A stretch of DNA of 32,585 bases from Alphaproteobacteria bacterium (lineage in GTDB: Bacteria > Pseudomonadota > Alphaproteobacteria > Caulobacterales > Hyphomonadaceae). The stretch lies in NCBI GenBank assembly GCA_018969425.1, contig JAGWYJ010000038.1, positions 1-32,585 of the forward strand, written 5' to 3'. A program made the position numbers and the translations under genes. The notes under the pieces were generated by a model. The model was not told where the DNA came from. It saw only the letters and a list, made by a program, of their open reading frames with translations, and did no database searches. Positions 3,163-27,438 of the stretch are shown here, piece by piece (the first letter of the stretch is position 1; each line of letters starts with the position of its first letter).

Positions 3163-3242
3163 GAATAGAAGATAAGTTCGGCAGGACATGCGGCGCCCCA
3201 GAAACTAGTCTCCCGACGGTCAGCCCCCGTGGGAGTATGCTC

Positions 3243-7262: not shown

Positions 7263-7274
7263 TGGGGCTCTCCC

Positions 7275-10319: not shown

Positions 10320-10366
10320 GTCTGGCGATAGCCCTTGACAAAGGCGGCCAGACGCTAACATTTCAA
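10320..10366 (+). promoter_or_regulatory. Promoter of the gntR-dgc-dpp operon with inverted repeat
   Basis: A perfect -35 TTGACA (10335-10340) is followed at 15 bp by TAACAT (10356-10361, four of six consensus positions). A 7-bp inverted repeat, GTCTGGC (10320-10326) and GCCAGAC (10347-10353), is centred on the -35. CTAACATTTCAA (10355-10366) over the -10 resembles the perfect palindrome at 27427-27438. A transcript from this promoter would start near 10368, which is after the ATG at 10366 and so favours the GTG start at 10396. Autoregulation by the GntR product is a reasonable inference. Confidence 0.5.
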
Positions 10367-10395
10367 TGAACGCTTGCTTTCAGGATAACCGCGTC

Positions 10396-11124
10396 GTGAC
10401 AGAGACATCGACCAACCTAAGAAATACCAAGACTGACAAGGTGTTTCGCCGGATTCGGCAGATGATTATCGACCTCGAGTTTCGGCCGGGCGCCGTCATC
10501 CAGAAAGAACAGCTGACCAGTCTTTTCGGCGTCTCCCGGGCGCCGATCAATGAAGCGCTGGCCCGCCTCCGGGAGGAGGATCTGGTCTACATCGCCCCTC
10601 AGCATGGAACGTTCGTCCAGGCCATTCACATCTCGAAGCTCAAGGAAGGACTGTTCTTCCGACGGGCCGTCGAACCCAAGGCGATCGCCGCGCTGGCGCT
10701 GTCGGCGACCCAGACCCTGATCGACCAGCTCGAAGACAACCTGCAACGGCAGCGATCGGCGGTTCGGGCGGGCGACCTCTCGGCCCTGCACAGCCTCGAC
10801 GACGCCTTCCACAGCCTGCTTCTTCAGGAAGGCGACCTGCAGCACACAGTGCGCCTTGTGCGAACCTTCAGCGCCCACCTCGAGCGCGCCCGCAACCTCG
10901 CCCATGTGACGAGGCGACGACCGAACGATACGGTTGAGGACCATGCCCAGATCGTCGCCGCCCTGGCGGCCCGCGATCCGCGGTGGGCGGAAAGCGCGAT
11001 GGATCTGCACCTCGCATCCGCTCTGGCGCCCCTGCGAAAGATGATCGAGGAGACCCCCGAAGTCTTTACGGCGGGCGAGGATCACGCAGCGACGATCAAC
11101 CGCCAGCCCCGGGCGTCGGCCTGA
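10396..11124 (+). CDS. GntR family transcriptional regulator, FadR/FCD subfamily
   Basis: This is a 242-residue regulator. The N-terminal winged helix (about 14-75) contains VFRRIRQMIIDLEFRPG, the recognition region LFGVSRAPINEALARLREEDLV and the wing GTFV. The C-terminal all-helical FCD domain (about 85-210) carries candidate metal/ligand-binding histidines: DAFHS (His139), EDHAQ (His183) and DLHLAS (His205). The GTG at 10396 is preferred because the best promoter would place the transcript start beyond the ATG at 10366; AGGA at 10382-10385 is a somewhat distant ribosome site. Using 10366 would add ten residues. It is the first gene of the D-glutamate/peptide operon, so it is the likely local regulator, with an acidic small molecule such as a D- or N-acyl-amino acid as effector. 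That effector role is inference. Confidence 0.9.
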   Translation: MTETSTNLRNTKTDKVFRRIRQMIIDLEFRPGAVIQKEQLTSLFGVSRAPINEALARLREEDLVYIAPQHGTFVQAIHISKLKEGLFFRRAVEPKAIAALALSATQTLIDQLEDNLQRQRSAVRAGDLSALHSLDDAFHSLLLQEGDLQHTVRLVRTFSAHLERARNLAHVTRRRPNDTVEDHAQIVAALAARDPRWAESAMDLHLASALAPLRKMIEETPEVFTAGEDHAATINRQPRASA

Positions 11125-11169
11125 CCGGTTCGCCTCGACCTGACCGAATTGAACCCATGGACGCCTCTC

Positions 11170-12219
11170 ATGACCGAGATCGACCCTCCGTCGCCATTGT
11201 CTCCTGCGATCATCCGGATCGAGACGCCCTACCTTATATTTCTGGGCGCCGTGACGTCGCGAAACGCCGCCAAGACAGCCTATGGCCTGCGTGACTGGAG
11301 ACCGGAAGCCTGCCTCGGGCAACTGAGACTGCCCGGGTGCAGCGAGGATCTTGGGATTGCGGACCTGTCGATAGAGGACGCCGCGCGAAAGGGTGCGCGA
11401 ACGCTGGTCGTCGGCGTCGCCCCGGTCGGAGGCAGACTCGAGCCCTCCTGGATCGCGGTGTTCGAAGCGGCGCTCAAAGCCGGGCTTGATATCGCAGCCG
11501 GCCTGCACACCCGCCTCGGCGAGAATGAACAGCTCGCCGCCCTCGCCCGCCGCCTGGACCGGCGTCTGACCGATGTTCGCATCCCGCCACCCGGCCTGCC
11601 CATTGCGAACGGCAGGAAGCGTATCGGGAAACGACTTCTGACCGTTGGAACGGACTGCGCGGTCGGAAAGAAGTATACCGCCCTCGCCATCTCAAAAGAG
11701 CTGCAGGGACGAGGACACGCAGCGAGTTTCCGTGCAACCGGCCAGACCGGCATCCTGATCGCCGGCAGCGGAATTCCTATTGACGCGACGGTCAGCGATT
11801 TCACGGCCGGCGCTGCGGAAATCCTGTCGCCAGACAATCATCCCGGCCACTGGGACATCATCGAAGGTCAGGGCTCGCTCTTCCATCCCGCCTACGCCGG
11901 CGTTTCGCTTGGCCTTCTGCATGGATCACAACCGGACGCCGTCGTCGTCTGCCACGAAGCCGGACGTGAGCGGATCTTTTTCTATAATGACTATCCGGTT
12001 CCCGATATCGCGGAGTGCATCGACCTGAACGTACGGCTGGGACGCCTGACGAATCCCGCCCTGCGGTGCGTCGGCGTGAGCGTCAACACCTCGGCGCTCG
12101 CACCCGACGAACGCCACAGCTACCTGTCCGATCTGAGCCGACGCCTAGGTCTCCCGTGCGTCGACCCGATCGCAACCGGCGTCTCCCCGATTGTCGACCG
12201 CATGATTGCGGAGGTCTGA
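11170..12219 (+). CDS. dgcN: DUF1611-type D-glutamate N-acetyltransferase DgcN
   Basis: This 349-residue protein belongs to the DUF1611 family. The N-terminal domain (about 10-140) is Rossmann-like; the C-terminal P-loop domain has GTDCAVGKKYTA (160-171), followed by ATGQTGI and DIIEGQGSLFHP motifs typical of the family. In the D-glutamate pathway described from marine proteobacteria, DgcN acetylates D-Glu to N-acetyl-D-Glu, which DgcA then epimerises. The adjacent dgcA-type gene makes this assignment strong. The ATG at 11170 is chosen over a TTG at 11149 because GGA lies eight bases upstream; neither site is ideal. The stop (12219) is one base before the dgcA ATG, implying coupled translation. 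A relaxed acceptor specificity toward other D-amino acids remains possible. Confidence 0.85.
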   Translation: MTEIDPPSPLSPAIIRIETPYLIFLGAVTSRNAAKTAYGLRDWRPEACLGQLRLPGCSEDLGIADLSIEDAARKGARTLVVGVAPVGGRLEPSWIAVFEAALKAGLDIAAGLHTRLGENEQLAALARRLDRRLTDVRIPPPGLPIANGRKRIGKRLLTVGTDCAVGKKYTALAISKELQGRGHAASFRATGQTGILIAGSGIPIDATVSDFTAGAAEILSPDNHPGHWDIIEGQGSLFHPAYAGVSLGLLHGSQPDAVVVCHEAGRERIFFYNDYPVPDIAECIDLNVRLGRLTNPALRCVGVSVNTSALAPDERHSYLSDLSRRLGLPCVDPIATGVSPIVDRMIAEV

Positions 12220-12220
12220 C

Positions 12221-13204
12221 ATGAGCGGATCGATCCGAATGACCGTGACAGAGGATCGGTGGCCTTTCCGCAAGCCGTTCCGGATCGCTTCAGGAACCCT
12301 CGAGACGGTTGACTTTCTGACCGTCACGCTCAGATGCGGCGACATAACCGGACAGGGAGAGGGCATCGGCGTGCTCTTTCGCGGCGAGACCCTTGAAAGC
12401 ATGCGCGAGGACGCCGAAGGCGTCCGGCTGGCGCTGGAAGGCGGTGCAGACAGAACCGATCTTCAGATGCTCCTTCATGCGGGCGGGGCTCGCAACGCCA
12501 TCGACTGCGCGCTTTGGGATCTTGAGTGCAAGATGGCGGGAGTGTCGATCTGGGAGAAGACCGGGTTAGCCGCGACCGCGCTTCAGACTGTCTACACGAT
12601 CGGGATCGACGACCCGCCGGCGATGATGGCCGATGCGCAGGCCTCTCGCGCGCGCATCCTCAAGATCAAGATTGCAGGACCAGGCGGCGTCGACCATGTC
12701 CGTCTGATCCGCAAGGCAAGACCGGACGCTCGCCTGATTGTTGACGCCAACAGATCTTTGTCGCGAAACGGTCTGGAGGCGATCCTCGGGGATCTGGCGG
12801 CCGAAGGGGTCGAGATGCTCGAGCAGCCGCTTCAACCCGGCGAGGATAAGTCGCTTGCCGACCTGAAATCCCCGATCCCACTCTGCGCCGACGAAAGCTG
12901 CCTCACCCGGGGCGACCTCGGCGCCGTGGCGTCCCTCTACGATATGATCAACATCAAGCTCGACAAGACCGGCGGCCTGACCGAAGCGCTCGCACTGGCG
13001 AAGGCGGCGCAGGAGCGCGGTCTGTCGCTCATGGTCGGCTGCATGGCCGGCACGTCCCTGTCCATGGCCCCCGCCTTCGTGATCGGCCAGATGTGCAGTT
13101 TTGTGGACCTCGACGGACCTCTGCTGATGGCGAGCGACCGGGACCCGGGCATGACCTACCTGAATGACGAGGTTCTTCCGCCTCGACCGGATCTGTGGGG
13201 ATGA
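12221..13204 (+). CDS. dgcA: Enolase-superfamily N-acetyl-D-glutamate racemase DgcA (dipeptide-epimerase-like)
   Basis: This 327-residue protein belongs to the muconate-lactonising/enolase superfamily. The catalytic set is intact: KIK (Lys148, Lys150), metal ligands Asp175 (VDAN), Glu201 (LEQPL) and Asp224 (CADES), and the opposite-face base Lys246 (INIKLDKTGG). This two-lysine pattern supports 1,1-proton-transfer epimerisation. By sequence alone it could be an L-Ala-D/L-Glu epimerase (YcjG type), but immediate coupling to the DUF1611 gene points to DgcA, which converts N-acetyl-D-Glu to N-acetyl-L-Glu. The ATG at 12221 has GGAGG (12210-12214) six bases upstream; an in-frame TTG at 12206 is inside that ribosome site region and is rejected. 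Both options place the enzyme in D-glutamate or cell-wall-peptide catabolism. Confidence 0.87.
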   Translation: MSGSIRMTVTEDRWPFRKPFRIASGTLETVDFLTVTLRCGDITGQGEGIGVLFRGETLESMREDAEGVRLALEGGADRTDLQMLLHAGGARNAIDCALWDLECKMAGVSIWEKTGLAATALQTVYTIGIDDPPAMMADAQASRARILKIKIAGPGGVDHVRLIRKARPDARLIVDANRSLSRNGLEAILGDLAAEGVEMLEQPLQPGEDKSLADLKSPIPLCADESCLTRGDLGAVASLYDMINIKLDKTGGLTEALALAKAAQERGLSLMVGCMAGTSLSMAPAFVIGQMCSFVDLDGPLLMASDRDPGMTYLNDEVLPPRPDLWG

Positions 13205-13205
13205 C

Positions 13206-13553
13206 ATGAACGATACAGCCGAACTGATCGTCCAAAGACAGGTCGAGGCCTATAACGCGCGAGATCTCGAGGCGTTTGCGGAATGCTTCTCGGACACGAT
13301 CGAGATCTTCGACTTTCCTGACCGGCTCATCCTGCGTGGCAAGCCGGCCCTGCGCGAACGCTACGCCCGGCGCTTCAGCGAATCGGAAGATCTGCATGCT
13401 GAGATCCGGGGCCGGTTCTCGAGCGGGACCTATGTCGTCGACATCGAGGATCTGACTGGCTCGGCTTTCGGGGCTGCTCCCGCAGCCGTGATCTATGAGG
13501 TCAGCCACAGCCTGATCACAAGAGCATGGTTCATCCGTAATGCGACCATCTGA
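13206..13553 (+). CDS. Small NTF2-like (SnoaL-type) protein
   Basis: This is a 115-residue protein with one base between the dgcA stop and its ATG. It starts IVQRQVEAYNARDLEAFAECFSD..., then has a short loop and LRGKPALRERYARRF, the helix-loop-helix opening of the SnoaL/ketosteroid-isomerase-like NTF2 fold, followed by a beta-rich half (TYVVDIEDL, AAVIYEVSHSLITRAWFIRN). Members range from isomerases and cyclases to non-catalytic ligand binders. No diagnostic catalytic residue can be assigned. The position inside a D-amino-acid/peptide operon, overlapping the binding-protein gene by 14 nt, implies a role in the same process, but I cannot say which. Confidence 0.7.
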   Translation: MNDTAELIVQRQVEAYNARDLEAFAECFSDTIEIFDFPDRLILRGKPALRERYARRFSESEDLHAEIRGRFSSGTYVVDIEDLTGSAFGAAPAAVIYEVSHSLITRAWFIRNATI

Positions 13554-15165
13554 GGTCATCCCTCGCCGGCTTCGCGCGCTTCCGGCGATCAGGCGGATGA
13601 TCGTCGCATCGTCGACCCTTCTTCTCACCGCTTTGAGCGTTTCATGCATCCGACAGGACACAGCGCGCACGGACGCGATCGTGATCAGCGTCCGCTCAAA
13701 CGTCGGCCCCCTCGATCCGGCGGTGTCTCCCGATACCGAGCAGCTTCAGATCATCTTCCCGGCCTATGACAATCTGGTCTCGATCACGTCGGATCCGGAA
13801 ACCGGCGAGGATGTTTTCCATCCCGAAATCGCATCATCCTGGACCGTCTCTCCGGACCGGCTGGTCTGGACCTTCACCCTCTCCGACCGATACGTGTTCG
13901 ACAGCGGGAGACGCGTCGACGCTGAGGCGGTTAAATTCACCTTTGATCGCCTGATGGCGATCAGCCGGGGTCCCTCAAGCAGCCTCAAAGAAGCCGTCGG
14001 GACAGTCGAGGTCCTGTCCCCGCAGACTGTTCGCTTCACGCTGAAGCGACCGCTTCCCTCATTTCTGCCGCTGATCGCCGATCGTGCGATGTTCATCATC
14101 GACCCGGGCGTCATGACACACGAAATCGACGGGGATCACGCCAGCCAGTGGCTCTCCACCCATTCCGCCGGCTCAGGGCCCTACAGGCTGGTGAAGCACT
14201 CCCCGAGAGACGTCTACATTCTCGAGCCAAATCCGTTCCGTCCCGATCCGCCCCGGCAGATTCAGAAGATTATCTACAAAGTCGCCAACGATCCCTCCGT
14301 GCGGGCGCTGCAGCTTGCTAAAGGCGATATCGATCTCGCTTATTTCCTTCCCGCCGAGCTGATCGGTCCCTTCCGGGAGGACCCCCGATACCGGGTCGAT
14401 GTCATCTCCTCACCCGCGATGAACTTTCTCGCCTTCAATATGGAGCGTCCGGCGCTGGCGGATCGCAGACTGCGGGAGGCGGTCGCTCACGCCATCGACT
14501 ATGAGGCGATCGTTCGGGACATAAAGTACGGCCTCGCCGAAGAATTTCGCGGTCCGTTGCTCCCCGGAATGATCGGCTACCGGCCGGACGAGTACCCTTA
14601 CGCCTATGACCCTGAAAAGGCGCGAGAGCTTGTAGCCTCCCTGCGCAGAGACGGACCTCTGCCCGAGATGACCCTGATTTATCCGGGCGTGTCTGCAGCG
14701 TCCGACACCATGGCCATATTCATCCAGTCCAGCCTCGCCGCAAGCGGGATCGACCTGAAACTTCAGAGACTGACGGTCCCTGCCGTCATCGATCGCATCC
14801 AGAGAGGCAATTACGACCTCCTGTTCATGGGATGGGTCTCAGCCTACGGCGACCCGTCCAACATCATGAATGTCTGGTTCGACCCGAAGTACAAAGGCGG
14901 GAGCGGAAACTACGCGCGGTACGAAAATCCTGAGGTGACAGAACTGCTCGCAAAGTCCCTGTCGGAGGGGGATCCACAGATCCGCGCCAGCCTTCTTCGG
15001 CAGTCCGTCGACCAGGTCAACCGCGACCTGCCTTACGTCTATCTTGTCAAGAATGCGGTCTGGACCGTCGCCTCGTCGCGCCTCCAGGGCCTGTCGTTCG
15101 ATCAGTACAATCTGTTCGATCAGGATTTTCATCTCATGACCCTGACAGAGGATGAGACACCATGA
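13540..15165 (+). CDS. Peptide ABC transporter substrate-binding protein (SBP family 5)
   Basis: This 541-residue extracytoplasmic binding protein is of the DppA/OppA class. After a basic N terminus and hydrophobic stretch (MIVASSTLLLTALSVSC, Cys36) it shows the family start LDPAVSPDTEQLQIIFPAYDNL, then LVWTFTLSDRYVFDSGRRVDAEAVKFTFDRL, and later NFLAFNMERPALADRRLREAVAHAIDYEAIV. The signal peptide could be a lipoprotein type with Cys36 as lipid anchor, though the box (L-S-V-S-C) is imperfect. The start at 13540 overlaps the SnoaL-type gene by 14 nt; an internal ATG at 13597 would give a shorter signal peptide. Substrate is probably a di- or oligopeptide; context suggests peptides with D-amino acids. 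Its permease and ATPase genes lie downstream, separated by three hydrolase genes. Confidence 0.9.
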   Translation: MRPSEVIPRRLRALPAIRRMIVASSTLLLTALSVSCIRQDTARTDAIVISVRSNVGPLDPAVSPDTEQLQIIFPAYDNLVSITSDPETGEDVFHPEIASSWTVSPDRLVWTFTLSDRYVFDSGRRVDAEAVKFTFDRLMAISRGPSSSLKEAVGTVEVLSPQTVRFTLKRPLPSFLPLIADRAMFIIDPGVMTHEIDGDHASQWLSTHSAGSGPYRLVKHSPRDVYILEPNPFRPDPPRQIQKIIYKVANDPSVRALQLAKGDIDLAYFLPAELIGPFREDPRYRVDVISSPAMNFLAFNMERPALADRRLREAVAHAIDYEAIVRDIKYGLAEEFRGPLLPGMIGYRPDEYPYAYDPEKARELVASLRRDGPLPEMTLIYPGVSAASDTMAIFIQSSLAASGIDLKLQRLTVPAVIDRIQRGNYDLLFMGWVSAYGDPSNIMNVWFDPKYKGGSGNYARYENPEVTELLAKSLSEGDPQIRASLLRQSVDQVNRDLPYVYLVKNAVWTVASSRLQGLSFDQYNLFDQDFHLMTLTEDETP

Positions 15166-16658
15166 AGCGGGTCTTCCTCGCCGCCCTCGCGACCGAGACA
15201 AACACCTTCGCCCCCATTCCAACTGAGCGGCGACACTTTGAGGAATGGTTCCTCTACCGAGCGGGTGAACACCCCCACGACGGGCCAACGCTGTTCACCG
15301 CCCCGCTGTGGAGCGCCCGCAAACACGCTGCAGAGTTCGGCTGGACCCTGATCGAAGGGCTCTGCACCGCCGCTTTCCCCTCCGGAAGGACAGTTCGGAG
15401 CGTCTACGAGGCGCTGCGCGACGAGCTTCTCGACGATCTGAGAGCGGCGCTTCCCGTAGACATCGTCCTGCTGGGCCTGCACGGCGCCATGGCGGCGGAC
15501 GGATATGATGACTGCGAGGGAGATCTTCTCCGCCGTATACGAAGCCTGTGCGGTCCCTCAACCATCATCGCTGCGGAGCTTGACCCTCACTGTCACCTCA
15601 CCGAGGACATGGTCGAAGCGGCCGACCTCCTGGCGGCGTTTCAGGAATATCCCCATACCGATGCGATGGAGCGGGCGGATCATCTGGTCAGGCTGGCCAG
15701 AGACGCCTCCGAGAAGAAGATCACGCCGGTGACGGCGGTCGCCGACGCACGCATGTCGGCTCAGGTCTTCACCACGCAGGCGCCGGCGCTGAATCTCGTG
15801 AACGCGATGAAGGCGGCCGAGCGCAGTGGAGAGGTCCTGTCCGCATCGCTCGGACATTCCTTCGCCGCAGGCGATGTCGCGGATATGACGGTCAGAGCCT
15901 GGGTCATCACCGACAACGCGCCGGAGCAGGCCATCCGGTCCGCCTGCGGATTTCGCGACATGGCCTGGGCGATGAAGGAGACATGCGGCGCGAGACGAAT
16001 GACAGGTCCTGAGGCCATCGAATTCATCGGCACAGTCTCGGATCGGGTGATCCTCGCAGAGGGCGCTGACAACTCAGGTGGCGGCGCGCCCTCAGACTCC
16101 ATGGAGCTGATCCGCGCACTGATGGACGCCAGCGTCGGTCCGATCGCCGCTGGACCAATCTGGGACCCCCTGGCCGTCGAGATCGCCCTGGCCCGCGGGG
16201 TCGGTGCAAGATTTGAGCTGAGGGTGGGGGGAAAGGCCTGCGCCCTGTCGGGACGACCGCTCGACCTGAACGTTGAGGTGATAGAGATCCGTCGAGGCGC
16301 AACGCAGTCCTTTGGCGGATCGATCTGGCCCATGGGCGACATGGTCGGACTGAAATCAGGCAACGTCTTCCTCGCCTTGTCGACGGTCCGCAATCAGGCC
16401 TTCACCCCGGAGATCTTCACCGGCGTCGGGATCGATCCGGAGGCGCAGCGCGTTCTCGTCCTGAAGTCCAATCATCATTTCCGGGACGCATTTGCGTCGC
16501 TTTCGAACCATATCCTCTACATGTCGACGCCCGGAGTTGCCGTTTGTGACCCTCGTGCAGCGCATTACTTGTCTGTCCGGCGCCCTCTCTGGCCCCTTGA
16601 CTCAGAGGCCTCCGCCCAGGCGGCGCAAACCAGCTGGCTGAAGGGATCGTCGCGATGA
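15162..16658 (+). CDS. M81 family metallohydrolase (MlrC-like), copy 1
   Basis: This 498-residue protein belongs to the M81/MlrC family, whose founding member MlrC cleaves the linear peptide from microcystin. It starts with the family signature LATETNTFAPIPT. The N-terminal catalytic domain shows LGLHGAM (His107), ELDPHCHLT (Asp141, His143) and the downstream EYPHTD (His165), the expected zinc-ligand pattern. The C-terminal MlrC_C domain has AEGADNSGGGAPSDSMELIRALMD-type sequence near residues 300-325. The ATG overlaps the stop of the binding-protein gene (ATGA), indicating translational coupling. There is no signal peptide, so it acts in the cytoplasm on imported peptide or amide. A role in hydrolysing N-acyl or iso-linked glutamyl compounds is an inference from context. 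Confidence 0.9.
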   Translation: MKRVFLAALATETNTFAPIPTERRHFEEWFLYRAGEHPHDGPTLFTAPLWSARKHAAEFGWTLIEGLCTAAFPSGRTVRSVYEALRDELLDDLRAALPVDIVLLGLHGAMAADGYDDCEGDLLRRIRSLCGPSTIIAAELDPHCHLTEDMVEAADLLAAFQEYPHTDAMERADHLVRLARDASEKKITPVTAVADARMSAQVFTTQAPALNLVNAMKAAERSGEVLSASLGHSFAAGDVADMTVRAWVITDNAPEQAIRSACGFRDMAWAMKETCGARRMTGPEAIEFIGTVSDRVILAEGADNSGGGAPSDSMELIRALMDASVGPIAAGPIWDPLAVEIALARGVGARFELRVGGKACALSGRPLDLNVEVIEIRRGATQSFGGSIWPMGDMVGLKSGNVFLALSTVRNQAFTPEIFTGVGIDPEAQRVLVLKSNHHFRDAFASLSNHILYMSTPGVAVCDPRAAHYLSVRRPLWPLDSEASAQAAQTSWLKGSSR

Positions 16659-18130
16659 GGATCTTCACAGCCACGCTCGGCACCGAAACCAATACGTTCG
16701 CACCGCTTCCTACGAACCTCGAGAGCTTCCGAGACCTTGTCTGTGTGTCGGGAGCTGACATCACAACGGGTCGAAGCGAGCCTTCCGCCGCGGGCCGGGC
16801 CCTCCTGAGTCTGCGTCAGGACAGACCCATTGAGATCATCCACGGCCTGTCTGCAACCGCACAACCCGGCGGCGTCACCACCCGAGCGGCCTACGAGCAT
16901 CTTCGGGGACAGTTACTGGACGATCTCGCAGCGGCCGGAAAAGTGAACGGCGTTCTGCTCAACCTTCACGGCGCGATGATCGCAGACGGATATCTCGACT
17001 GTGAGGGCGACATACTGCGCCGGGTTCGGGCGCACACAGGCCCCGACATACCGGTCTGCGTCGTGCTCGATCCGCACTGCCACCTGTCAGAGGAGATGCT
17101 GCAGTATGCGGACGCCATCAGCTGCTACAAGGAATACCCGCACACGGATGTCGAAGAATGCCTGATCCAGATGGCGGACCTTCTGGTCCGGATCGTGGAC
17201 GGCCGCCACAAACCGGTTCAGTCCGTTTTCGACTGTCGGATGATCTCCATTCTTCATACGCGAGAGGAGCCTGTCCGCTCGATCATCGACCGCATCCGGA
17301 TCCTTGAACAGACCGAGGCCGACATCCTGTCGATCTCGATCGTTCACGGATTTCCATGGGGAGACAGTCCAGACATGGGGACCCGTGTCCTGGTGATTAC
17401 CGATGCAGCGCCGGAAAAGGGCGCACGGATCGCCAGAGAGATCGGCATGGACCTGTTCGCCCATCGCGACTCCTCCGGGAAGAAGCTCCTCACCCTGGAG
17501 GAGGCGACCCGCGAGGCCCTGCGCGCCAGCGAGCGTCCGCTTGTTATCGCCGACTCCTCAGACAATCCCGGCGGAGGCGCCCCCTCTGATTCCATGCGCC
17601 TGATCCGATCGCTGATGGATCAGGGCGCAACCAACGCAGCAGCCGCTTTCATCTGGGATCCCGGCGCCGTCGCAATCGCCCATCGCGCTGGCGAAGGTGC
17701 AAGACTGCCCATTCGGATCGGCGGCAAGACCTCCGTCCTCTGCGGACCGCCGCTGGATCTGGACCTGACAGTGAAACGGGTGATGGAAAACCTGTCAGAG
17801 GTGTTCGCGGGCCTCACCTGGAACACAGGGCCAGCGGCCGTTGTGGAAGGCGGAGGGTTCGAGCTCGTTCTGACGACCAATCGCATTCAATGCTTCACCC
17901 CGGAGGCGTTCCGTCAGGCGGGCATCCGTCCCGAGGACAAATCGATACTCGTGGTCAAATCGAGCCAGCACTTCCGGAGCGCGTTTGAACCACTAGCGGG
18001 TCGCATCCTTTACGCAGAGCCGCCGGGCGTCCTCGACACGAGACTGGACACTCTGCCCTTTCGTCATGTTCAGCGCCCCCGGTGGCCGTTCGACCCGGAT
18101 CCATTCGGATCAGCCGGAGGACAGCCGTGA
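16655..18130 (+). CDS. M81 family metallohydrolase (MlrC-like), copy 2
   Basis: This 491-residue protein is a second M81/MlrC member directly after the first, with an ATGA overlap. It opens LGTETNTFAPLPT and conserves LNLHGAM (His105), VLDPHCHLS (Asp139, His141) and EYPHTD (His163), with the same spacing as copy 1, plus the C-terminal SSDNPGGGAPSDSM motif. Both copies therefore look catalytically complete rather than one being decayed. The sequences differ clearly outside the motifs, so this is an old duplication or two separately acquired genes, with likely different substrates or a heteromeric enzyme. There is no signal peptide. It is translationally linked to the next gene by a GTGA overlap. 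Confidence 0.9.
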   Translation: MRIFTATLGTETNTFAPLPTNLESFRDLVCVSGADITTGRSEPSAAGRALLSLRQDRPIEIIHGLSATAQPGGVTTRAAYEHLRGQLLDDLAAAGKVNGVLLNLHGAMIADGYLDCEGDILRRVRAHTGPDIPVCVVLDPHCHLSEEMLQYADAISCYKEYPHTDVEECLIQMADLLVRIVDGRHKPVQSVFDCRMISILHTREEPVRSIIDRIRILEQTEADILSISIVHGFPWGDSPDMGTRVLVITDAAPEKGARIAREIGMDLFAHRDSSGKKLLTLEEATREALRASERPLVIADSSDNPGGGAPSDSMRLIRSLMDQGATNAAAAFIWDPGAVAIAHRAGEGARLPIRIGGKTSVLCGPPLDLDLTVKRVMENLSEVFAGLTWNTGPAAVVEGGGFELVLTTNRIQCFTPEAFRQAGIRPEDKSILVVKSSQHFRSAFEPLAGRILYAEPPGVLDTRLDTLPFRHVQRPRWPFDPDPFGSAGGQP

Positions 18131-19512
18131 GCGCCTTGTCAGCTGAACGCCTGGGTCCTCATGCGGAGAGGCAGGCTGAACGTTTCGGAACGCCGGGAGG
18201 ACAGATAGCCCTTCTGACGCCTGAGGGCGTCTCTGTCCTGGCGATCGGGCGTTCAAGGTCTGATCTCAGCGACCGCGTCTCCCCTGAAACCCTGTTTCAG
18301 ATGGGATCGTCCACAAAAATGCTTACGGCCGCACTCTACCTTCACGCCGTCGATCGGGGACTGGTCCGTCTCGATACGCGCGTGAAGGACGTGCTGCCCG
18401 ACTTCCGACTGGGTGATCGCCATGCCGCAGCGCAGATCACAGCCCGCCACCTCCTCACCCATACTGGAGGATTTGACGGAGACTACTATCTCGACACCGG
18501 GTGCGATCCCGGATGCATCGGAACCTATGTCCGGGCATGTGCCGATCTCGAGCAGATCACGCCGCCCGGAGTCCGACACTCCTATTCGAACGCCGGTTTC
18601 GCCATCCTCGCGCACATGTGTGAGCAGATCCTCGAGGCGGAGTGGCCGCGCCTCGTTGTCGAGGTGATTGCACGTCCTGCCGGCATGACACACTTTTTCC
18701 CATCGCCGTCGGCGCCTCTCCCGCATACAGAGATCGCCTGGGGTCATACCCGCACGAGCGATGGTCAGACTATCCCGTCGCCTCCCTACGAGCACTGCTG
18801 TCTCGCTCCCTGCGGGGGCGGTCCCGTCTGCACGAGCACGGATCTTCTCTCCTTCATCTCCATGCTGATGAACGGGGGCGTGGCTCCAAGCGGGGCGCGC
18901 GTCCTGTCAAGGCAATCGGCGGCCGCCATGCTTCATCGGGAGATCGAAGGCCCCTGCTCCACCTTCGCCAGCGCCTGGGGACTGGGAACGATGCTGCACG
19001 ACTGGACGGGGGGGCAGACCCTGTTCGGCCATGATGGCGCCGTCCCAGGACAAACCACCTATCTGCGTGCGCACGCCCCGACCCGGACAGCGATCTGCAT
19101 CATGACCAATGGCGGAGAGGCGGACGGGTTCGCCGATGCGATCGTTCGTGAGAGCTTTTGCAGGATGATCGGGGCGGATCCGCAGGCGTCCCCGACCGTG
19201 TCGGAAGCGCGACGTCCCCTGTCGGACTATTGCGGGGTCTATTCGACACAGGGAGCGCGGCTGGATGTCGAAGAACAGGACGGCGGGCTCCGCCTGACCG
19301 TCGCGCCGGGCCGTCGCGGCCTTGGCGGGGTCCTCGCCATGGCCGTGGACCTGAAGCCTGTTGACGATGAGCGCTTCCTGGCCTCCTTTCCGGGGCGAAC
19401 CTTCGGACTTCTCCAGCGCTTCGTCGAGTTTGATGAGAGCGGCCGGGCAAGCGTTCTCAATTTCAGGGGGCGGGAGTATCGCCGCGACCCTGCCGGGGAG
19501 AAAGCGGCGTGA
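18127..19512 (+). CDS. Cytoplasmic serine hydrolase, D-aminopeptidase-like (beta-lactamase class C fold)
   Basis: This is a 461-residue protein with no signal peptide or membrane segment. The GTG start at 18127 overlaps the preceding stop (GTGA) and has GGAGG (18116-18120) six bases upstream, which decides it. Active-site motifs are SSTK (Ser61, Lys64), YSN (Tyr153) and HDG (His302). The D-aminopeptidase of Ochrobactrum anthropi uses Ser62, Lys65, Tyr153 and a C-terminal His-x-Gly, so the spacing agrees very well; that enzyme has two extra beta-barrel domains and about 520 residues, whereas here there is a single beta-rich C-terminal region (about 370-461). Release of N-terminal D-amino acids from imported peptides would fit the context. 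A plain esterase or amidase is the alternative. Confidence 0.85.
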   Translation: MSALSAERLGPHAERQAERFGTPGGQIALLTPEGVSVLAIGRSRSDLSDRVSPETLFQMGSSTKMLTAALYLHAVDRGLVRLDTRVKDVLPDFRLGDRHAAAQITARHLLTHTGGFDGDYYLDTGCDPGCIGTYVRACADLEQITPPGVRHSYSNAGFAILAHMCEQILEAEWPRLVVEVIARPAGMTHFFPSPSAPLPHTEIAWGHTRTSDGQTIPSPPYEHCCLAPCGGGPVCTSTDLLSFISMLMNGGVAPSGARVLSRQSAAAMLHREIEGPCSTFASAWGLGTMLHDWTGGQTLFGHDGAVPGQTTYLRAHAPTRTAICIMTNGGEADGFADAIVRESFCRMIGADPQASPTVSEARRPLSDYCGVYSTQGARLDVEEQDGGLRLTVAPGRRGLGGVLAMAVDLKPVDDERFLASFPGRTFGLLQRFVEFDESGRASVLNFRGREYRRDPAGEKAA

Positions 19513-20528
19513 TTATTCGTACGATCGCCCTGCGCCTCGCGCTCATGGGATTTGTCCTCGCCGGACTGATCCTCATCACCTTCATCATATCGAGACTGAT
19601 CCCCACCGATCCGGCGCGACTGATCGCCGGAGATTACGCAAGCCCCGACGTCGTGGCGGCAATCCGTCAGGAGCTCGGCCTGGACAAGCCTCTGATCGAT
19701 CAGTTCCGGATCTATGCGGAAGGTCTCCTGCGAGGCGATCTCGGGACATCCATCACCTCGCGTCGACCCGTCATCGACGATCTTGCGCGCTTCGCGCCGG
19801 CAACCATCGAACTGGCCCTGTCCGCGATGACGCTCTCGGTCGCCGGGGGTCTGATCTTCGGGGTTCTGTCCGCCGTCTATAAGGACTCATGGATTGACCA
19901 GCTGGTGAGGCTGATCGCCATGGTGGGCGTATCGACCCCGTCCTTCTGGCTCGCCCTGCTGTTGCTGCTGTTCTTTTATGGGCAGCTGGATCTCTTCCCT
20001 GCCGGAGGGCGGATCGATCCTGATCTCGCCGCTCTCCCGCAGCCAACGGGCCTGTACATGATCGACGGCGCTCTGGCCCTGCGCGGTGATGTCCTTTCGA
20101 GCGCTCTCGCCCATCTCTTTCTGCCATCGTTGTGCCTCGCGCTGATCACCATGGGCGGCTTCGCCCGGTTGATCCGGGCCTCCCTTCTGGAGGAGCTGGG
20201 CCGCTCCTATGTGCGCACGGCGAGGGCTATAGGCCTGACACGATGGCGCACGGTCCTTCGTCACGCCCTTCCCAACTCGCTCACCCCGTTCGTCACCCAG
20301 CTTGGACTGAGCTTTGCCGGCATGCTGACCGGAGCAGTTGTCACCGAGAGCATGTTCGGCTGGCCGGGCATGGGCGGATACATTCTGCAGGCGACCGAGA
20401 CGCTCGACTTTCCGGCGATCATGGGCTTCACCCTGGTGGTCGGGGTGATTTACGCCGTCCTCAACCTTGTCATCGACCTTTGTTACCTTCTCCTCGATCC
20501 TCGACTGAGAGAGGAGCACAGGTCATGA
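19509..20528 (+). CDS. Peptide ABC transporter permease (DppB-like)
   Basis: This 339-residue inner-membrane protein belongs to the binding-protein-dependent transport family 1. The first helix (about 9-28, MGFVLAGLILITFIIS) is followed by the DppB/OppB-type periplasmic region with LGLDKPLIDQF, RGDLGTSI and then five more hydrophobic segments. The cytoplasmic EAA loop is visible as RSYVRTARAIGLTRW...HALPN (about 235-258), the contact site for the ATPase. The GTG start overlaps the previous stop (GTGA). It pairs with the downstream DppC-like permease to form the translocation pore for the binding protein encoded at 13540-15165. Confidence 0.92.
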   Translation: MIIRTIALRLALMGFVLAGLILITFIISRLIPTDPARLIAGDYASPDVVAAIRQELGLDKPLIDQFRIYAEGLLRGDLGTSITSRRPVIDDLARFAPATIELALSAMTLSVAGGLIFGVLSAVYKDSWIDQLVRLIAMVGVSTPSFWLALLLLLFFYGQLDLFPAGGRIDPDLAALPQPTGLYMIDGALALRGDVLSSALAHLFLPSLCLALITMGGFARLIRASLLEELGRSYVRTARAIGLTRWRTVLRHALPNSLTPFVTQLGLSFAGMLTGAVVTESMFGWPGMGGYILQATETLDFPAIMGFTLVVGVIYAVLNLVIDLCYLLLDPRLREEHRS

Positions 20529-21415
20529 CGCCGGCGCCGTCCGCACAGGAGACCGCCGGTCCTTCCGGTAGCGGGGCTCTTGCCCTGATCCGGCGCGAGC
20601 TGGCCGCCTCGCTTCTCATGCGCACAGGCCTGTTCGGCCTTATTCTGGTGTTCAGTGCGGCGATGATCGGCCCGCTTCTGATCAGCCATGATCCCGATAC
20701 GATTGACCTCTCTGCGCGCCTCAGTGGCCCCACCCTTCGTCACTGGCTCGGCACCGACGAGCTGGGCAGGGACATCCTTGCGCGCGTTCTGAGCGGGGCG
20801 CGCATATCGCTCACCCTCGGGGTTTCGATCGCGCTGATCAGCTGCGTCCTCGGGACGATTACCGGATGCTATGTCGGCCTTCGTGGCGGCTGGCTGGACA
20901 CCGTCGCCATGCGGGCGGTGGATATCCTGCTCTCACTTCCCGGCCTTGTCCTCGCCATGGCCTTCACGGCGGCTCTGGGCCCAAGCCTGACCAATGCAAC
21001 CCTCGCGCTGACCCTGATCACCACTCCCGGGCTCATTCGTCTTGCACGGGGTCAGGCCCTGATGCTGCGCAATGAGCCCTATGTGGAGGCCTCGCTCCTT
21101 TACGGCGGATCCAGATGGCATGTGATGATCACGCACGTGATCCCAAATGCGGCGCCGGCCATCATCGTTCAGACGACGTTGTCGGTGGGAGCGATCATCC
21201 TGGCCGCAGCTGCGCTGAGCTTTCTGGGGCTTGGAGCCCAGCCTCCGACAGCCGAATGGGGCGCAATGGTCGCATCCGGGCGCAACTTCCTCACCATTCA
21301 GCCCCTCTATCCTCTGGCCCCTGGCCTCGCGATCCTCGTGACGGCTGTATCCTTCAACCTCCTCGGCGATGGCCTGAACGACGCCCTCAACCCAAGACGG
21401 GAGGGCCAGCTCTGA
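20525..21415 (+). CDS. Peptide ABC transporter permease (DppC-like)
   Basis: This is a 296-residue inner-membrane protein. A cytoplasmic N terminus with the DppC/OppC N-domain and one helix (about 31-53) precedes the hallmark HWLGTDELGRDILARVLSGARISL and the remaining five helices. The EAA loop is RNEPYVEASLLYGGSRWHVM...HVIPN, and the C-terminal SFLGLGAQPPTAEWG motif is characteristic. The ATG at 20525 overlaps the DppB-like stop (ATGA); the same frame is open much further upstream, but that is inside the previous gene and is not coding. It forms the permease heterodimer with the product of 19509-20528. Confidence 0.92.
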   Translation: MTPAPSAQETAGPSGSGALALIRRELAASLLMRTGLFGLILVFSAAMIGPLLISHDPDTIDLSARLSGPTLRHWLGTDELGRDILARVLSGARISLTLGVSIALISCVLGTITGCYVGLRGGWLDTVAMRAVDILLSLPGLVLAMAFTAALGPSLTNATLALTLITTPGLIRLARGQALMLRNEPYVEASLLYGGSRWHVMITHVIPNAAPAIIVQTTLSVGAIILAAAALSFLGLGAQPPTAEWGAMVASGRNFLTIQPLYPLAPGLAILVTAVSFNLLGDGLNDALNPRREGQL

Positions 21416-23094
21416 TGATCCCGGCACTCGAAATCGACAGCCTCGATATCTCCCTTTTGTCCGCCAGCAATCCTCCGGCGCCCATCGTGAAATCACTCTC
21501 CCTCAGACTGGATCCCGGAGAGATCGCCGGGCTTGCCGGCGAAAGCGGCTCGGGCAAATCGCTGACGGCGCTGGCGACCATGCGTCTGCTATCGCCCCGA
21601 TCGTTCAGGGTCGAGGCGCGATCAATGCGTCTGGCAGGCGTGGAGACAAGCCGGCTGTCGGATGAGGAGATGAGACAGCGTCGCGGATCCGACATCAGCA
21701 TGATCTTTCAGGAGCCCATGTCCTCGCTCAATCCCTCAATGAGGATCGGCGATCTTCTGGCCGAGACGATGCATCGTCGCCGGGAGAGGGATCCCGGCGT
21801 TATCCGCAAGGCCGCGATCGAGAGCCTGAGACGCGTTCGTCTGGACGACCCCGAACGGATACTTCGCGCCTTCCCTCATCAGCTCAGCGGCGGCATGAGA
21901 CAGAGGGTCATGATCGCGATGGCGTTCTGCAATTCCCCGAAGGTCCTGATTGCTGACGAGCCGACCACCTCGCTGGATGTGTCGATCCAGGCGGACATCC
22001 TCGGCCTGCTCAAAGATCTCGCGGGCGAGACCGGATGCGCCATTCTCATGATTTCTCATGATCTTGCGGTCATGTCCGGGATCTGCCGCACGATCCATGT
22101 GATGCGCGAGGGGAGGATCGTCGAGAGCGGCCCGGTCCCCGCGACCCTGCTGCAGCCAGCCCATCCCTATACGCGCCTTCTTCTCTCCTCCCTGCCCGAC
22201 AACCTTCCCCACAGGGCTCGTCTGCCCTTGGAGAGCACTGGGAGCGCATCAGGCGTCCCCCCCCGGGTCTTGACGCCTGATGCCGACAAGGCTCGCAAAG
22301 GGGATGGCGCCATTGTGGTGGAGGCCCGGGACCTGTCCGTCAGCTTCAAAATCGGGGGCTCTGCGCCCTGGACCTTCCAATCCGCTCTTCTCGCAGTCAG
22401 CGGGGTGACATTCGGGATCCGCAAAGGCGAGACGCTGAGCATCATCGGAGAATCCGGATCTGGAAAGACAACGCTGGCGCGCACCCTCGTCGGCCTTCAG
22501 GCGCCAACCTCGGGAAGCGTCGAGGTCCTGGGCGAGCCGCCGCGTCAGGCCGCCCGGTCGGGACGGCTTCAGATGATCTTTCAGGACCCGCGGACATCTC
22601 TGAGCCCAAGGCTTCCCGCCTGGCGTCTGGTTACAGAGCCGCTGTATCTGCACGGCGAGCGGCATGGGCTTCGCGCCAGGGCAGCCGAGCTTCTGGCCCG
22701 CACAGGCCTTCCCGCTGACGCCCTCGATCGGGGGCCGCGTGAGTTTTCGGGCGGACAGCGCCAGAGGCTTGCGATTGCTCGCGCCCTCAGCACGGATCCC
22801 GACATTCTCGTTCTCGACGAGCCGACCTCGGCCCTCGATGTGTCGGTTCAGGCCCGGATTCTAAATCTGCTTCTGGACCTGCAGGATGAGCAGGGACTGA
22901 CCTACATCCTCGTCACTCACGACATGTCCATCGTGGCCCACCTGAGCGATCGGATCGCCGTCATGAAGACGGGCCAGGTGATTGAGGAAGGACTGGCCGC
23001 TGAGGTTCTGAAGCGGCCGCGCAATCCCTATACGCAGGCCCTGATAGGCTCCACACCCCGACTTCCTGACGGCGTATGGCGGCCGTCTCATTAG
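21415..23094 (+). CDS. Fused double ATPase of the peptide ABC transporter (DppD-DppF type)
   Basis: This 559-residue protein carries two complete ABC ATPase domains. Domain 1 (about 4-265) has Walker A GESGSGKS (42-49), signature LSGGM (158-162), Walker B with ADEP (180-183) and switch His in MISHD. Domain 2 (about 300-555) has Walker A GESGSGKT (345-352), signature FSGGQ (444-448), Walker B LDEP (467-470) and VTHD. The oligopeptide-transporter C-terminal extension (HPYTRLLLSSLP; NPYTQALIGSTP) follows each domain. Both sites look active. The ATG at 21415 shares one base with the previous stop (TGATG) and has GGAGGG at 21400-21405. It energises the importer formed by the two permeases. Confidence 0.93.
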   Translation: MIPALEIDSLDISLLSASNPPAPIVKSLSLRLDPGEIAGLAGESGSGKSLTALATMRLLSPRSFRVEARSMRLAGVETSRLSDEEMRQRRGSDISMIFQEPMSSLNPSMRIGDLLAETMHRRRERDPGVIRKAAIESLRRVRLDDPERILRAFPHQLSGGMRQRVMIAMAFCNSPKVLIADEPTTSLDVSIQADILGLLKDLAGETGCAILMISHDLAVMSGICRTIHVMREGRIVESGPVPATLLQPAHPYTRLLLSSLPDNLPHRARLPLESTGSASGVPPRVLTPDADKARKGDGAIVVEARDLSVSFKIGGSAPWTFQSALLAVSGVTFGIRKGETLSIIGESGSGKTTLARTLVGLQAPTSGSVEVLGEPPRQAARSGRLQMIFQDPRTSLSPRLPAWRLVTEPLYLHGERHGLRARAAELLARTGLPADALDRGPREFSGGQRQRLAIARALSTDPDILVLDEPTSALDVSVQARILNLLLDLQDEQGLTYILVTHDMSIVAHLSDRIAVMKTGQVIEEGLAAEVLKRPRNPYTQALIGSTPRLPDGVWRPSH

Positions 23095-23141
23095 CGACAG
23101 GACACGCCGTGCGCGGCGGATCAGCTGGAAAGGTTAGATCG

Positions 23142-25124
23142 ATGCTCAAAGGGTCAGCTTCTGATCGCAGGCTGAAAACGCCCTGGCGCTCCATCACCCG
23201 CCTGACCCCTCTCAGGTCGATCGGGGCTTCCTTCTGGCGGATGACCATTCCCGCCCTGGCGCTTTTCATCGCCTGTCCGGCTGAAGCGCAGCAGGCGGAC
23301 GGCAGGACCGCAGAGGCGCCGGCGCTGACCGCACCAGATTTCGCCGCCCGTGCGCAGGAGATTGATACGGCGCTGCAGTCGGCCTTTAAGGACAATCGGT
23401 TCTCATCGGCGGCTGTCACCCTCGTTACGGAAGGCGGCGACACCTTCACACGCGCATACGGCATGGCGGATGCAGACGCCGGCGTGACCGCCAGCGCATC
23501 AGACACGACATTTCTGATTGCCTCACTGACCAAGACCTTCACCGCACTCAGCGTCCTCCAGCTCTACGACCGCGGGAAAATCGCCTCCCTCGATGATCCC
23601 GCCAACACCTACCTCAAGCGAACGCAGCTGCCCGACTGGAAAGGCGAAGAGGTCACCATCCGCCATCTTCTCAGCCACCGGAGCGGTCTTGAGACCATGG
23701 GATTTGGGATCATCCGACACTATCAGATGACCGCTCCGGCCTCAGCGGCCTTTGTCCGTGCGCACACCCCCAAACTCGTGCGCAGACCCGGCGAAGCGAT
23801 CATCTATTCGAATGAGGGCATCGCGCTTCTGGGCATGATGGTTGAGGATATCACAGGTATGACGCTTCAGAGGTATCTGGAGGCCGAGATCCTGACCCCG
23901 CTTGGAATGAACCGCTCCATCCTGAACTATTCGATCACAGAGCCCGCGGGCGCAGCCCGCGCCTACTCCATCGGCGACGGAGAATTCGTCAAAGCCCCCT
24001 TTGAGGCCAATACCCCCTTCATGGCGCCGGCCGGATCCATGATGGTCACCGCGGACGATATGGCGCGATATCTGTCGTTCTGGATGGATCGCGGCCGGAC
24101 ATGGTCATCGCAGATCCTCTCGGCTGCGACATTTCAGGAAGCCATAACCGAGCAGGCGCGTAATTTTCCGGAAGGATCCGGCGTCGGCCTTGGAATCTTC
24201 CTCACCGACTGGAACGGCGCGCCTCTGTTCGATCACACAGGCGCCTTCGCAGGATACTCAGCCTATATGGCGATCTCTCCGGACACAGGTCTGGCCGCCT
24301 TCATCGCCGTCGCCGGCCGACCCGCGGACAAGGAGACCCCCCCCTATATAGGCTACTCGGACGGCGCAGCCCTGCTCTCGCGGGCGATCACAGGTCGCTC
24401 CGCCAGAACCTATAGCCCGAAGCCGCTGACCGATGCGCGGGCTTATGAAGGCCTTTACATCAATGACCGCCGATTCACCCGCGGCGTTCCCGGAATGATG
24501 CAGCTGAGAACGCCCATGCGGGTAGAAGCGACGGATGACGGCTTTCTGACCATCAACGGCGCCGGTCCGTTCGGCCTCGTCGGTGAAAGCCTGGTCGCTG
24601 TCGCGGGCGACGGCGTTAAGGCGCCGACGCGTTACAGCCTGCCCACGCCGGATAACGGATATTTCCGCATGAATGTGGATCGGGCGCGTCGTGCGGGCCC
24701 TCTCCAAACACCCGTCAGTCTCGAACGCCTTCTGATCGCAGGCGTCATTCTGCTGGGCCTTGGCAGTCTGGGCGCCTTCCGCATCCGCGGGGCCCTTAAT
24801 CTGACCGACCGGATCACGATGTGGTCGCCCCACCTTGGTCTAGCCGCCGTGGGCGGCGCCCTTTCGGCGATCTTTCTCTTCTGGCCCAGCGGTCAGTCGA
24901 TCTTCAATGATCTGATCGCCGGAGAAAACCTGCGTGTGTCCGTCATAACAGCCTGCGCATGGCTCTCCATCGCTGCGGCGGCTCTTGTCGGCGTTCACCT
25001 CGCCTGCGCTCTGCAGACCCGCAAGACGCTGTGGTCGATCCTTGCTCTGGCAGGGCTTGCCGGATCCGCCTGCATCGCTCTTTTTATGGTGGCGACAGGC
25101 CTGACGGATCTCACCCAGATTTGA
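23142..25124 (+). CDS. Secreted serine hydrolase (beta-lactamase/PBP fold) with C-terminal membrane domain, second copy
   Basis: This is a 660-residue protein. The ATG at 23142 has GGAAAGG (23127-23133) eight bases upstream; it gives a long basic N region before the hydrophobic segment MTIPALALFIACPAEAQ, so the ATG at 23241 is an alternative start for a conventional signal peptide. Active-site motifs are SLTK (Ser128, Lys131), YSN (Tyr222) and HTG (His365). As in the protein at 493-2445, a beta-rich linker leads to about four C-terminal hydrophobic segments (roughly 545-655). The catalytic domain is therefore expected in the periplasm. It is the last gene of the operon, 47 bp after the ATPase. 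It could trim peptidoglycan-type or other D-amino-acid peptides before uptake (inference). Confidence 0.87.
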   Translation: MLKGSASDRRLKTPWRSITRLTPLRSIGASFWRMTIPALALFIACPAEAQQADGRTAEAPALTAPDFAARAQEIDTALQSAFKDNRFSSAAVTLVTEGGDTFTRAYGMADADAGVTASASDTTFLIASLTKTFTALSVLQLYDRGKIASLDDPANTYLKRTQLPDWKGEEVTIRHLLSHRSGLETMGFGIIRHYQMTAPASAAFVRAHTPKLVRRPGEAIIYSNEGIALLGMMVEDITGMTLQRYLEAEILTPLGMNRSILNYSITEPAGAARAYSIGDGEFVKAPFEANTPFMAPAGSMMVTADDMARYLSFWMDRGRTWSSQILSAATFQEAITEQARNFPEGSGVGLGIFLTDWNGAPLFDHTGAFAGYSAYMAISPDTGLAAFIAVAGRPADKETPPYIGYSDGAALLSRAITGRSARTYSPKPLTDARAYEGLYINDRRFTRGVPGMMQLRTPMRVEATDDGFLTINGAGPFGLVGESLVAVAGDGVKAPTRYSLPTPDNGYFRMNVDRARRAGPLQTPVSLERLLIAGVILLGLGSLGAFRIRGALNLTDRITMWSPHLGLAAVGGALSAIFLFWPSGQSIFNDLIAGENLRVSVITACAWLSIAAAALVGVHLACALQTRKTLWSILALAGLAGSACIALFMVATGLTDLTQI

Positions 25125-25151: not shown

Positions 25152-25189
25152 CGCATTCAGGACCGGCCTCTGCGCCGGCTCAGAATGCG
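25152..25189. terminator. Hairpin between convergent genes
   Basis: An imperfect hairpin has outer arms CGCATTC (25152-25158) and GAATGCG (25183-25189), inner arms CCGGC (25163-25167) and GCCGG (25174-25178), and a 6-nt loop. It lies between two converging genes and overlaps the last codons of the minus-strand one. Neither side has a T tract, so it would be an atypical bidirectional terminator at best. Confidence 0.4.
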
Positions 25190-27372: not shown

Positions 27373-27426
27373 AGCCTTTCTCCTCTTGGCGAACAGTCTG
27401 AACACGACTAATCAATGACCCCACAT

Positions 27427-27438
27427 CTAACATGTTAG
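27427..27438. promoter_or_regulatory. Operator-like palindrome between divergent SDR and mannosidase genes
   Basis: CTAACATGTTAG is a perfect 12-bp palindrome within the 95-bp gap between the two divergent coding starts (27372 minus, 27468 plus). CTAACATTTCAA over the gntR -10 (10355-10366) matches it at nine of twelve positions. A GntR-type or LacI-type repressor site is a reasonable guess; nothing in the sequence identifies the protein. Confidence 0.4.

Follow-up and report, generated by a model that had tools for sequence, protein, structure and literature searches.

The contig JAGWYJ010000038.1 (C37; assembly GCA_018969425.1, Hyphomonadaceae, Caulobacterales), analysed here over its whole length of 32,585 bases and referred to as the window, belongs to a genome of 3.25 Mb that is 99.98% complete. 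It carries a gene island in which enzymes of the DgcN and DgcA types, which act on D-glutamate (D-Glu), are set among a peptide importer, two M81 metallo-hydrolases and S12 serine hydrolases. The island is read here as a locus for the catabolism of peptides rich in D-amino acids, D-Glu included, with a probability of about 0.65. As a variant of D-amino-acid peptide catabolism it recurs but is uncharacterised, and the pathway, predicted from the genes, is probably real.

The core of the island is a plus-strand run (10366-25124) that encodes a GntR/FCD regulator, DgcN, DgcA, a SnoaL-like protein, a solute-binding protein of family 5 (SBP5), DppB, DppC, a fused DppDF, two M81 and two S12 enzymes. 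Each gene type named in a preliminary description of the locus was recovered on the plus strand by profile matches and motifs, and the SnoaL_2 open reading frame (ORF), which occupies the gap between DgcA and SBP5, had been overlooked. The near-universal overlap of junctions claimed at that stage holds for the longest ORFs, in which every one of the 10 junctions between DgcN and the final S12 gene overlaps by 1-49 nt, but four of them (DgcN-DgcA, SnoaL-SBP5, M81b-S12 and DppDF-S12) turn into gaps with codon-scored starts; the overlap therefore depends in part on the choice of start. The unit is also wider than first drawn, as it takes in the upstream alpha/beta hydrolase and the downstream PF14031 enzyme on the minus strand, and perhaps the S12 protein at 493-2445. 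An operon for the E1, E2 and E3 components of a 2-oxo-acid dehydrogenase (3237-8987) precedes the alpha/beta hydrolase on the same strand, while a short-chain dehydrogenase/reductase (SDR) gene follows the PF14031 gene on the minus strand.

A DgcN-DgcA pathway for D-glutamate was reportedly described by Yu et al. in the ISME Journal in 2023. PMC12363236 and PMC10845958 already present dgcN as a D-Glu catabolic gene. As in that pathway, dgcN and dgcA are adjacent in the window, with a 14-nt overlap of the longest ORFs, and the closest solved chain to DgcN is 7xrj; the difference lies in the setting of the pair among a peptide importer and several enzymes of peptide-hydrolase type. DgcA has a relative in the enolase superfamily, the YcjG-type L-Ala-D/L-Glu epimerase (chain 1jpd, 216.6 bits). 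In contrast to that enzyme, the window protein adjoins dgcN and scores 138 bits better on the DgcA model than on the epimerase model PRK15129 (261.1 bits).

The importer is complete, with SBP5, two permeases and two ATPase domains. All three S12 proteins of the window keep the SxxK, YSN and HxG motifs. The one at 493-2445 is the only one flagged for a hydrophobic N-terminus (residues 3-24), and it ends in a membrane tail. The one at 18082-19512 (SSTK, YSN, HDG) lacks a hydrophobic segment, and the last (SLTK, YSN, HTG) has, by eye, a signal-peptide-like stretch before AEA-Q that went unflagged in the hydrophobicity scan. The PF14031 enzyme combines the domain match with the conserved segments PHGKTT and SHPCTTFDKW, which we take to hold pyridoxal phosphate and metal, and its closest chain, 3gwq, was named D-serine deaminase by its depositors. 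E1 passes the cut-offs of both TIGR03186, named alpha-ketoglutarate dehydrogenase (1408.3), and aceE (859.9). Since E2 is nearest to an acetyltransferase model, pyruvate or 2-oxobutyrate is the favoured predicted substrate of the complex. The 2-oxobutyrate enzyme MdeB falls under TIGR03186 and, like E1 here, has an Lrp-type regulator as a neighbour.

Support for a functional unit comes from its recurrence. Relatives of the window's DppB (E<=1e-80) were found in six of 398 genomes of the order, its own included (G000, G038, G053, G107, G462 and G479), and in five of the six an M81 gene lies in the DppB locus; that of G479 is on another contig. On contig C128 of G462, one strand carries M81, DppDF twice, DppC, DppB, PF14031 and PF07969, and the other SBP5, S12, alpha/beta hydrolase, M81, S12, TonB receptor, DgcN and DgcA. 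Contig C12 of G038 has the same set in a different order. Both islands match the window in DgcN, DgcA, SBP5, M81a, M81b, DppB, DppC, DppDF and the PF14031 enzyme (44-47%), and likewise in the alpha/beta hydrolase (35-36%) and in all three S12 types, those of 493-2445 (31%), 18082-19512 and 23076-25124. Identities run from 29%, for the S12 protein at 18082-19512, to 53% for DgcN. The shared genes gave a single DppDF hit in 20 control regions from the same order; their positions were set by hand, at round coordinates, rather than drawn at random. That the set recurs, rearranged, in G038 and G462 argues that the island is not a chance mix. The GntR, SnoaL-like and SDR genes have no counterpart in these two islands, both of which hold TonB receptors.

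The dehydrogenase operon adjoins the island of G038 as well (E1 67-74%, E2 57%, E3 60%). In G462, DgcA starts at about 21.46 kb on a contig of 22.57 kb and the sequence beyond is not visible; another dgcN-M81 pair of this genome is found on C162. Hits of 26% to PDH_E1 in G107 and G053 are a transketolase-type match and were left uncounted. Relatives of the PF14031 enzyme (E<=1e-60) occur in 13 of 396 genomes; three of them are those of the window, G038 and G462 islands, and in G026 about 14 kb separate it from an M81 gene.

Chance or assembly as the source of the gene set was considered and ruled out, its residual probability being negligible. In its favour, a search of 14 other genomes of the genus found no M81. 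Against it, a contig search with one protein as query found one near-identical locus, in a separate Caulobacterales metagenome-assembled genome (MAG) titled ErkenSummer (M81a 97% identical), in which the genes from alpha/beta hydrolase to PF14031 also lie together. Comparison of 14 genes with the MAG contig gave 94-99% identity, with every codon readable there. The ratio of nonsynonymous to synonymous changes (dN/dS) was 0.07-0.19 in 13 of the 14 genes and 0.49 in DppC, from few changes. The island genes are thus under purifying selection, and the same set stands in two other genera. Because M81 was found in one of 15 genomes of the genus and a DppB relative is absent from the 12 others listed, the island is an accessory trait.

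The link between dgcN and M81 was followed in 150 genomes of the order (DgcN at E<=1e-30, M81 at E<=1e-20). DgcN was found in 37 and M81 in 16 of them; both were present in 11, against 3.9 expected (Fisher p 1e-4), a count that includes the partial DgcN match of G053. These 11 genomes hold 19 M81 copies, of which 10 are no more than 10 kb from a dgcN, where 0.15 would be expected, and the near pairs are spread over seven genomes (G000, G001, G060, G075, G129, G143 and G038), the window's own included. The window gives two of the 10 near copies; if its genome is left out, 17 copies in 10 genomes remain, and 8 of them, spread over 6 genomes, are near dgcN. Absence of M81 from the dgcNA neighbourhood of relatives, which would have spoken against the preliminary description, was therefore not what we found: six more of the 150 genomes, and G462 besides, have an M81 gene no farther than 10 kb from dgcN.

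The surroundings of dgcN point in the same direction. Loci of about 20 kb were examined for 45 of the 48 other DgcN matches of the order, of which 44 were counted; G053 (L108) was left uncounted, and G118:C1, G129:C32 and G129:C1 were not taken. DgcA was found in 39 of the 44. Compared with the 20 control regions, these loci are rich in S12 (28/44 vs 1/20), TonB receptors (28/44 vs 0/20) and PF07969 amidohydrolases (19/44 vs 0/20), which supports a D-Glu-linked peptide catabolic island, and GntR/FCD regulators follow (10/44 vs 0/20). The excess of M81 (7/44 vs 0/20, p 0.06) is weak by itself, as are those of M19 (8/44 vs 1/20, p 0.15) and S58 (5/44 vs 0/20, p 0.14); the genome-wide distance test, not enrichment against 20 controls, is the strong one for M81. 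One of the PF07969 proteins (L071:11350-12909) scores 683.9 bits on PRK09061, a model named D-glutamate deacylase; this family is not found in the window, and weaker relatives (24-25% to the reference) occur in the G038 and G462 islands. Four loci (L100, L101, L102 and L104) share the layout TonB-DgcN-DgcA-SDR-TetR-type ORF-PhyH-S12-S58-M81-TonB, with DgcA not called in L104, and their SDR is 66-71% identical to that of the window.

Across the class, M81 is common and was found in 102 of 289 genomes sampled, among the matches listed, with at most five candidates scored per genome. Twenty class dgcN loci, from 72 genomes with a match, contain DgcA in 20, M81 in one and S12 in none. Twenty class M81 loci contain dgcN in none, DppB in six, SBP5 in four, PF01266 oxidoreductases in five and S12 in one; having been taken from the best-scoring matches, they lean to relatives of M81b. 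A class-wide linkage was sought and not found, with only G000, G001 and G241 (14 kb) close by eye among the matches listed. With counts of 1/20 and 0/20 in the class loci, linkage of dgcN and M81 seems to be particular to this order. M81 genes of the Rhizobiales plasmids L183 and L184 stand beside RidA, SDR, MurR/RpiR regulators and sugar importers of the ATP-binding cassette (ABC) type, with a D-TA family enzyme or beta-N-acetylhexosaminidase also among the neighbours and no dgcN annotated; this different context perhaps concerns amino-sugar peptides.

Two further DppB-bearing genomes, G053 and G107, hold M81 islands that resemble the window in M81 and in importer permeases 49-51% identical to its own. 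They differ in that no full dgcN was found (none in G107, a partial match 46 kb away in G053) and in their other genes, which encode M55 D-aminopeptidase, S58 peptidase, PF01266, class III aminotransferase and AMP ligases. The pairing of M55, PF01266 and S58 with an importer of the same subfamily supports the reading of the window as a D-amino-acid peptide locus, alongside the M81-dgcN proximity and co-occurrence, the enrichment of S12, TonB and PF07969, the recurrence in G038 and G462, and purifying selection. The PF01266 (5/20) and DppB (6/20) genes of the class M81 loci and the layout shared with MlrB, MlrD and MlrC, described below, count in favour of it too.

Gene content, motifs, linkage and purifying selection are observed; from them we infer the substrates, cell locations and order of steps in the following scheme. 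Peptides would be trimmed in the periplasm by the anchored alpha/beta hydrolase and the membrane-tailed S12 hydrolases; SBP5 would then bind them and DppB-C-DF would take them up. Within the cytosol, the remaining S12 hydrolase and the two M81 zinc hydrolases would free single residues. DgcN would acetylate D-Glu and DgcA would racemise the product to N-acetyl-L-Glu, which would be deacetylated elsewhere to L-Glu, the deacetylase gene presumably lying outside the window. The PF14031 enzyme would turn a beta-hydroxy D-residue, of the D-Ser or D-Thr type, into a 2-oxo acid, which the linked dehydrogenase complex would oxidise. By analogy, a periplasmic S12 enzyme, an inner-membrane peptide transporter and a cytosolic M81 enzyme would reproduce the layout that PMC12474180 proposes for periplasmic MlrB, membrane MlrD and cytosolic MlrC, which cuts the Adda-Glu bond.

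The nature of the peptide admits more than one answer. The scavenging of murein is possible, though doubtful: stem peptides with L-Ala-gamma-D-Glu would be imported and M81 would cut the L-Ala-D-Glu bond, much as MlrC cuts Adda-Glu in the same source. DgcN and DgcA would then be fed with D-Glu from this supply, and the best NCBIfam model of the two membrane-tailed S12 proteins is AmpH, at 89.7 and 103.8 bits, below the cut-off of 266. A dgcNA stretch from Sphingobium is also bordered by dacB, at a distance of about 8.7 kb. The Pfam hits of the window, however, include no muramidase, amidase or LD-carboxypeptidase family, and the linked PF14031 enzyme and dehydrogenase are left unexplained. These two suggest D-Ser- or D-Thr-type residues beside D-Glu, which the preliminary description did not foresee, and because of them neither murein alone nor microcystin fits well. 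D-rich non-ribosomal peptides or lipopeptides, whose ester or lactone the alpha/beta hydrolase would open, are a tentative alternative of similar standing. Such lipopeptides contain D-Glu together with D-Thr or D-Ser. Both other islands have the PF14031 enzyme, the alpha/beta hydrolase and TonB receptors, and one of them the 2-oxo-acid dehydrogenase as well, but the window lacks a TonB receptor, no named peptide is directly linked to it, and the substrate of the alpha/beta hydrolase is only presumed.

MlrC is the only member of the M81 family that we know to have a tested substrate. PMC9982164 gives E39, D167, H169 and H191 as zinc ligands of MlrC and W59, E70, F96 and Q468 as pocket residues. 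A tree was made of 56 M81 sequences, MlrC included, 55 of 56 M81 hits of the loci having passed a length and coverage filter. D167, H169 and H191 are present in all 55 non-MlrC sequences, the window's two included, and E39 in 54 with one gap, whereas E70 is retained in two of the 55. The four pocket positions read Y, L, A and H in M81a and V, E (alignment-dependent), T and H in M81b, so that W59, F96 and Q468 are kept in neither. In the tree, MlrC pairs with an M81 of G107 (support 100/99, 50.6% identity) that shares all four pocket residues. M81b groups with an M81 of the G038 island (97/86), the placement of M81a is unresolved, and the dgc-linked M81s do not form one clade (5 changes on the tree).

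Degradation of microcystin or nodularin was rejected as the principal function and is highly improbable. The combination of M81, S12 and peptide importer follows the logic of mlrC-mlrB-mlrD, and the title of the ErkenSummer MAG presumably refers to a lake. The sphingomonad cluster mlrC-mlrA-mlrD-mlrB is alike in its M81, S12 and inner-membrane peptide transporter and in the proposed compartments. The window differs in having an ABC importer instead of the major facilitator superfamily (MFS) transporter MlrD and in its attached dgcNA. Its M81s, which lack W59, F96 and Q468, reach 385.2 and 313.2 bits on the MlrC model NF041767 (cut-off 999) and are 40.4% (M81a) and 34.4% (M81b) identical to MlrC. 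No protein with the MlrA fold (PF02517) was matched in the nearly complete genome, whereas the family is present in 11 of 14 control genomes. The earlier inference thus survives as a D-Glu-linked peptide catabolic island and loses its cyanotoxin part.

A broader proposal, which we regard as unlikely but worth stating, is that M81 enzymes generally hydrolyse bonds beside D-Glu, iso-linked or otherwise, or other D-residues, and that mlrC-mlrB-mlrD was recruited from such islands. It is prompted by the position of MlrC's closest sampled relative next to an importer of the same subfamily and enzymes of D-amino-acid type. The islands concerned, L186 (G107) and L197 (G053), are nearly identical, and their two M81 copies are 94% alike; a peptide that contains a beta-amino acid, perhaps Adda-like, is a candidate substrate for degradation by them. 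When plasmids were searched with MlrC, nothing above 41.8% was among the matches listed. The Novosphingobium plasmid L180 carries a serine hydrolase, a dipeptide epimerase, a peptide MFS transporter, a TonB receptor and DUF1611 (DgcN) together, recalling mlrB and mlrD joined to dgcNA.

Several points weigh against reading the island as a D-amino-acid peptide locus. Both central enzymes fall slightly short of their NCBIfam cut-offs in full-length matches, DgcN at 477.6 bits against 480 (2.4 short) on NF041892 and DgcA at 399.2 against 400 (0.8 short) on NF042940. Neither an N-acetyl-L-Glu deacetylase nor a TonB receptor is among the 24 gene calls of the window, the genome not having been searched for the deacetylase. 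All protein activities and substrates given here are predictions. For the S12 proteins and the alpha/beta hydrolase, the counterparts in G038 and G462 are only 29-36% identical, which establishes family and place rather than orthology. These two genomes are of two other genera but of one family, different from the window's; in the DppB tree they pair at 100/99, so that independent witnesses of the full gene set may number only two. The same tree joins window, G038 and G462 only at 89/87. At 1e-20 no NCBIfam model matches the PF01266 protein of G107, whose action on D-amino acids is therefore only putative. The single M81-bearing genome in the genus, the rarity of dgcN-M81 neighbours beyond the order and the Rhizobiales M81 genes beside sugar importers and RpiR regulators belong on the same side.

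The features of the window are collected in Table 1. The right-hand end (27432-32585) encodes a GH38 alpha-mannosidase, a KAS III-type protein, an NAD epimerase and, truncated at the end of the contig, an ORF with a metallo-beta-lactamase fold; all but the last lack a match in the other islands compared. The SDR, a possible member of the unit, has 66-71% matches in four dgcN loci (G001, G060, G075 and G129). No tRNA and no Rfam match at the gathering score was found in the window.

Table 1. Predicted features of the window, with their coordinates and the evidence for each
Feature	Coordinates	Strand	Evidence
S12 (PF00144) serine hydrolase, possible outlying member	493..2445	+	PF00144 184.6 bits; SxxK, YSN, HGG
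Lrp/AsnC-type regulator, divergent from dehydrogenase operon	2527..3102	-	PF01037 86.1 bits
Homodimeric 2-oxo-acid dehydrogenase E1 (ORF could start at 2997)	3237..5918	+	TIGR03186 1499.7 bits; aceE 1378.1
Dihydrolipoyl acyltransferase E2, acetyltransferase type	5949..7262	+	TIGR01348 533.8 bits (cut-off 552.1)
Dihydrolipoyl dehydrogenase E3 with lipoyl domain	7275..8987	+	TIGR01350 439.1 bits
Alpha/beta hydrolase, perhaps periplasmic and anchored	9074..10285	+	PF00561; hydrophobic 1-33
GntR/FCD-type transcription regulator	10366..11124	+	PF07729, PF00392
DgcN (D-Glu N-acetyltransferase type)	11149..12219	+	NF041892; chain 7xrj 367.6 bits
DgcA (N-acetyl-D-Glu racemase type, enolase superfamily)	12206..13204	+	NF042940
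SnoaL_2-like small protein	13164..13553	+	PF12680 45.4 bits; dN/dS 0.11
SBP family 5 peptide-binding protein	13540..15165	+	PF00496 256 bits
M81 metallo-hydrolase a, probably cytosolic	15162..16658	+	PF07364, PF07171; zinc ligands kept; no hydrophobic segment
M81 metallo-hydrolase b, probably cytosolic	16655..18130	+	PF07364, PF07171; zinc ligands kept
S12 serine hydrolase, D-aminopeptidase-like, probably cytosolic (true start may be later)	18082..19512	+	PF00144 159.4 bits
DppB-type permease	19509..20528	+	PF00528 162.3 bits
DppC-type permease	20525..21415	+	PF00528
Fused DppD-DppF ATPase	21415..23094	+	two PF00005 stretches, oligo_HPY
S12 serine hydrolase, four-segment membrane tail, probably periplasmic	23076..25124	+	PF00144 193.1 bits
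PF14031 enzyme (D-serine dehydratase / D-threonine aldolase fold type)	25180..26463	-	PF14031 58.8 bits; chain 3gwq 315.8 bits
SDR oxidoreductase, possible member	26596..27405	-	PF13561

In the open-access literature, a limited scope and no proof of absence, no description was found of dgcNA together with M81 and a peptide importer. The association of a pair of M81 enzymes with D-Glu metabolism and a peptide importer provides the M81 family with a concrete, testable substrate class, and the island offers a possible origin for microcystin degradation. For the bacteria that carry it, the island may be a route to the pool of D-amino acids in dead cells and secondary metabolites.

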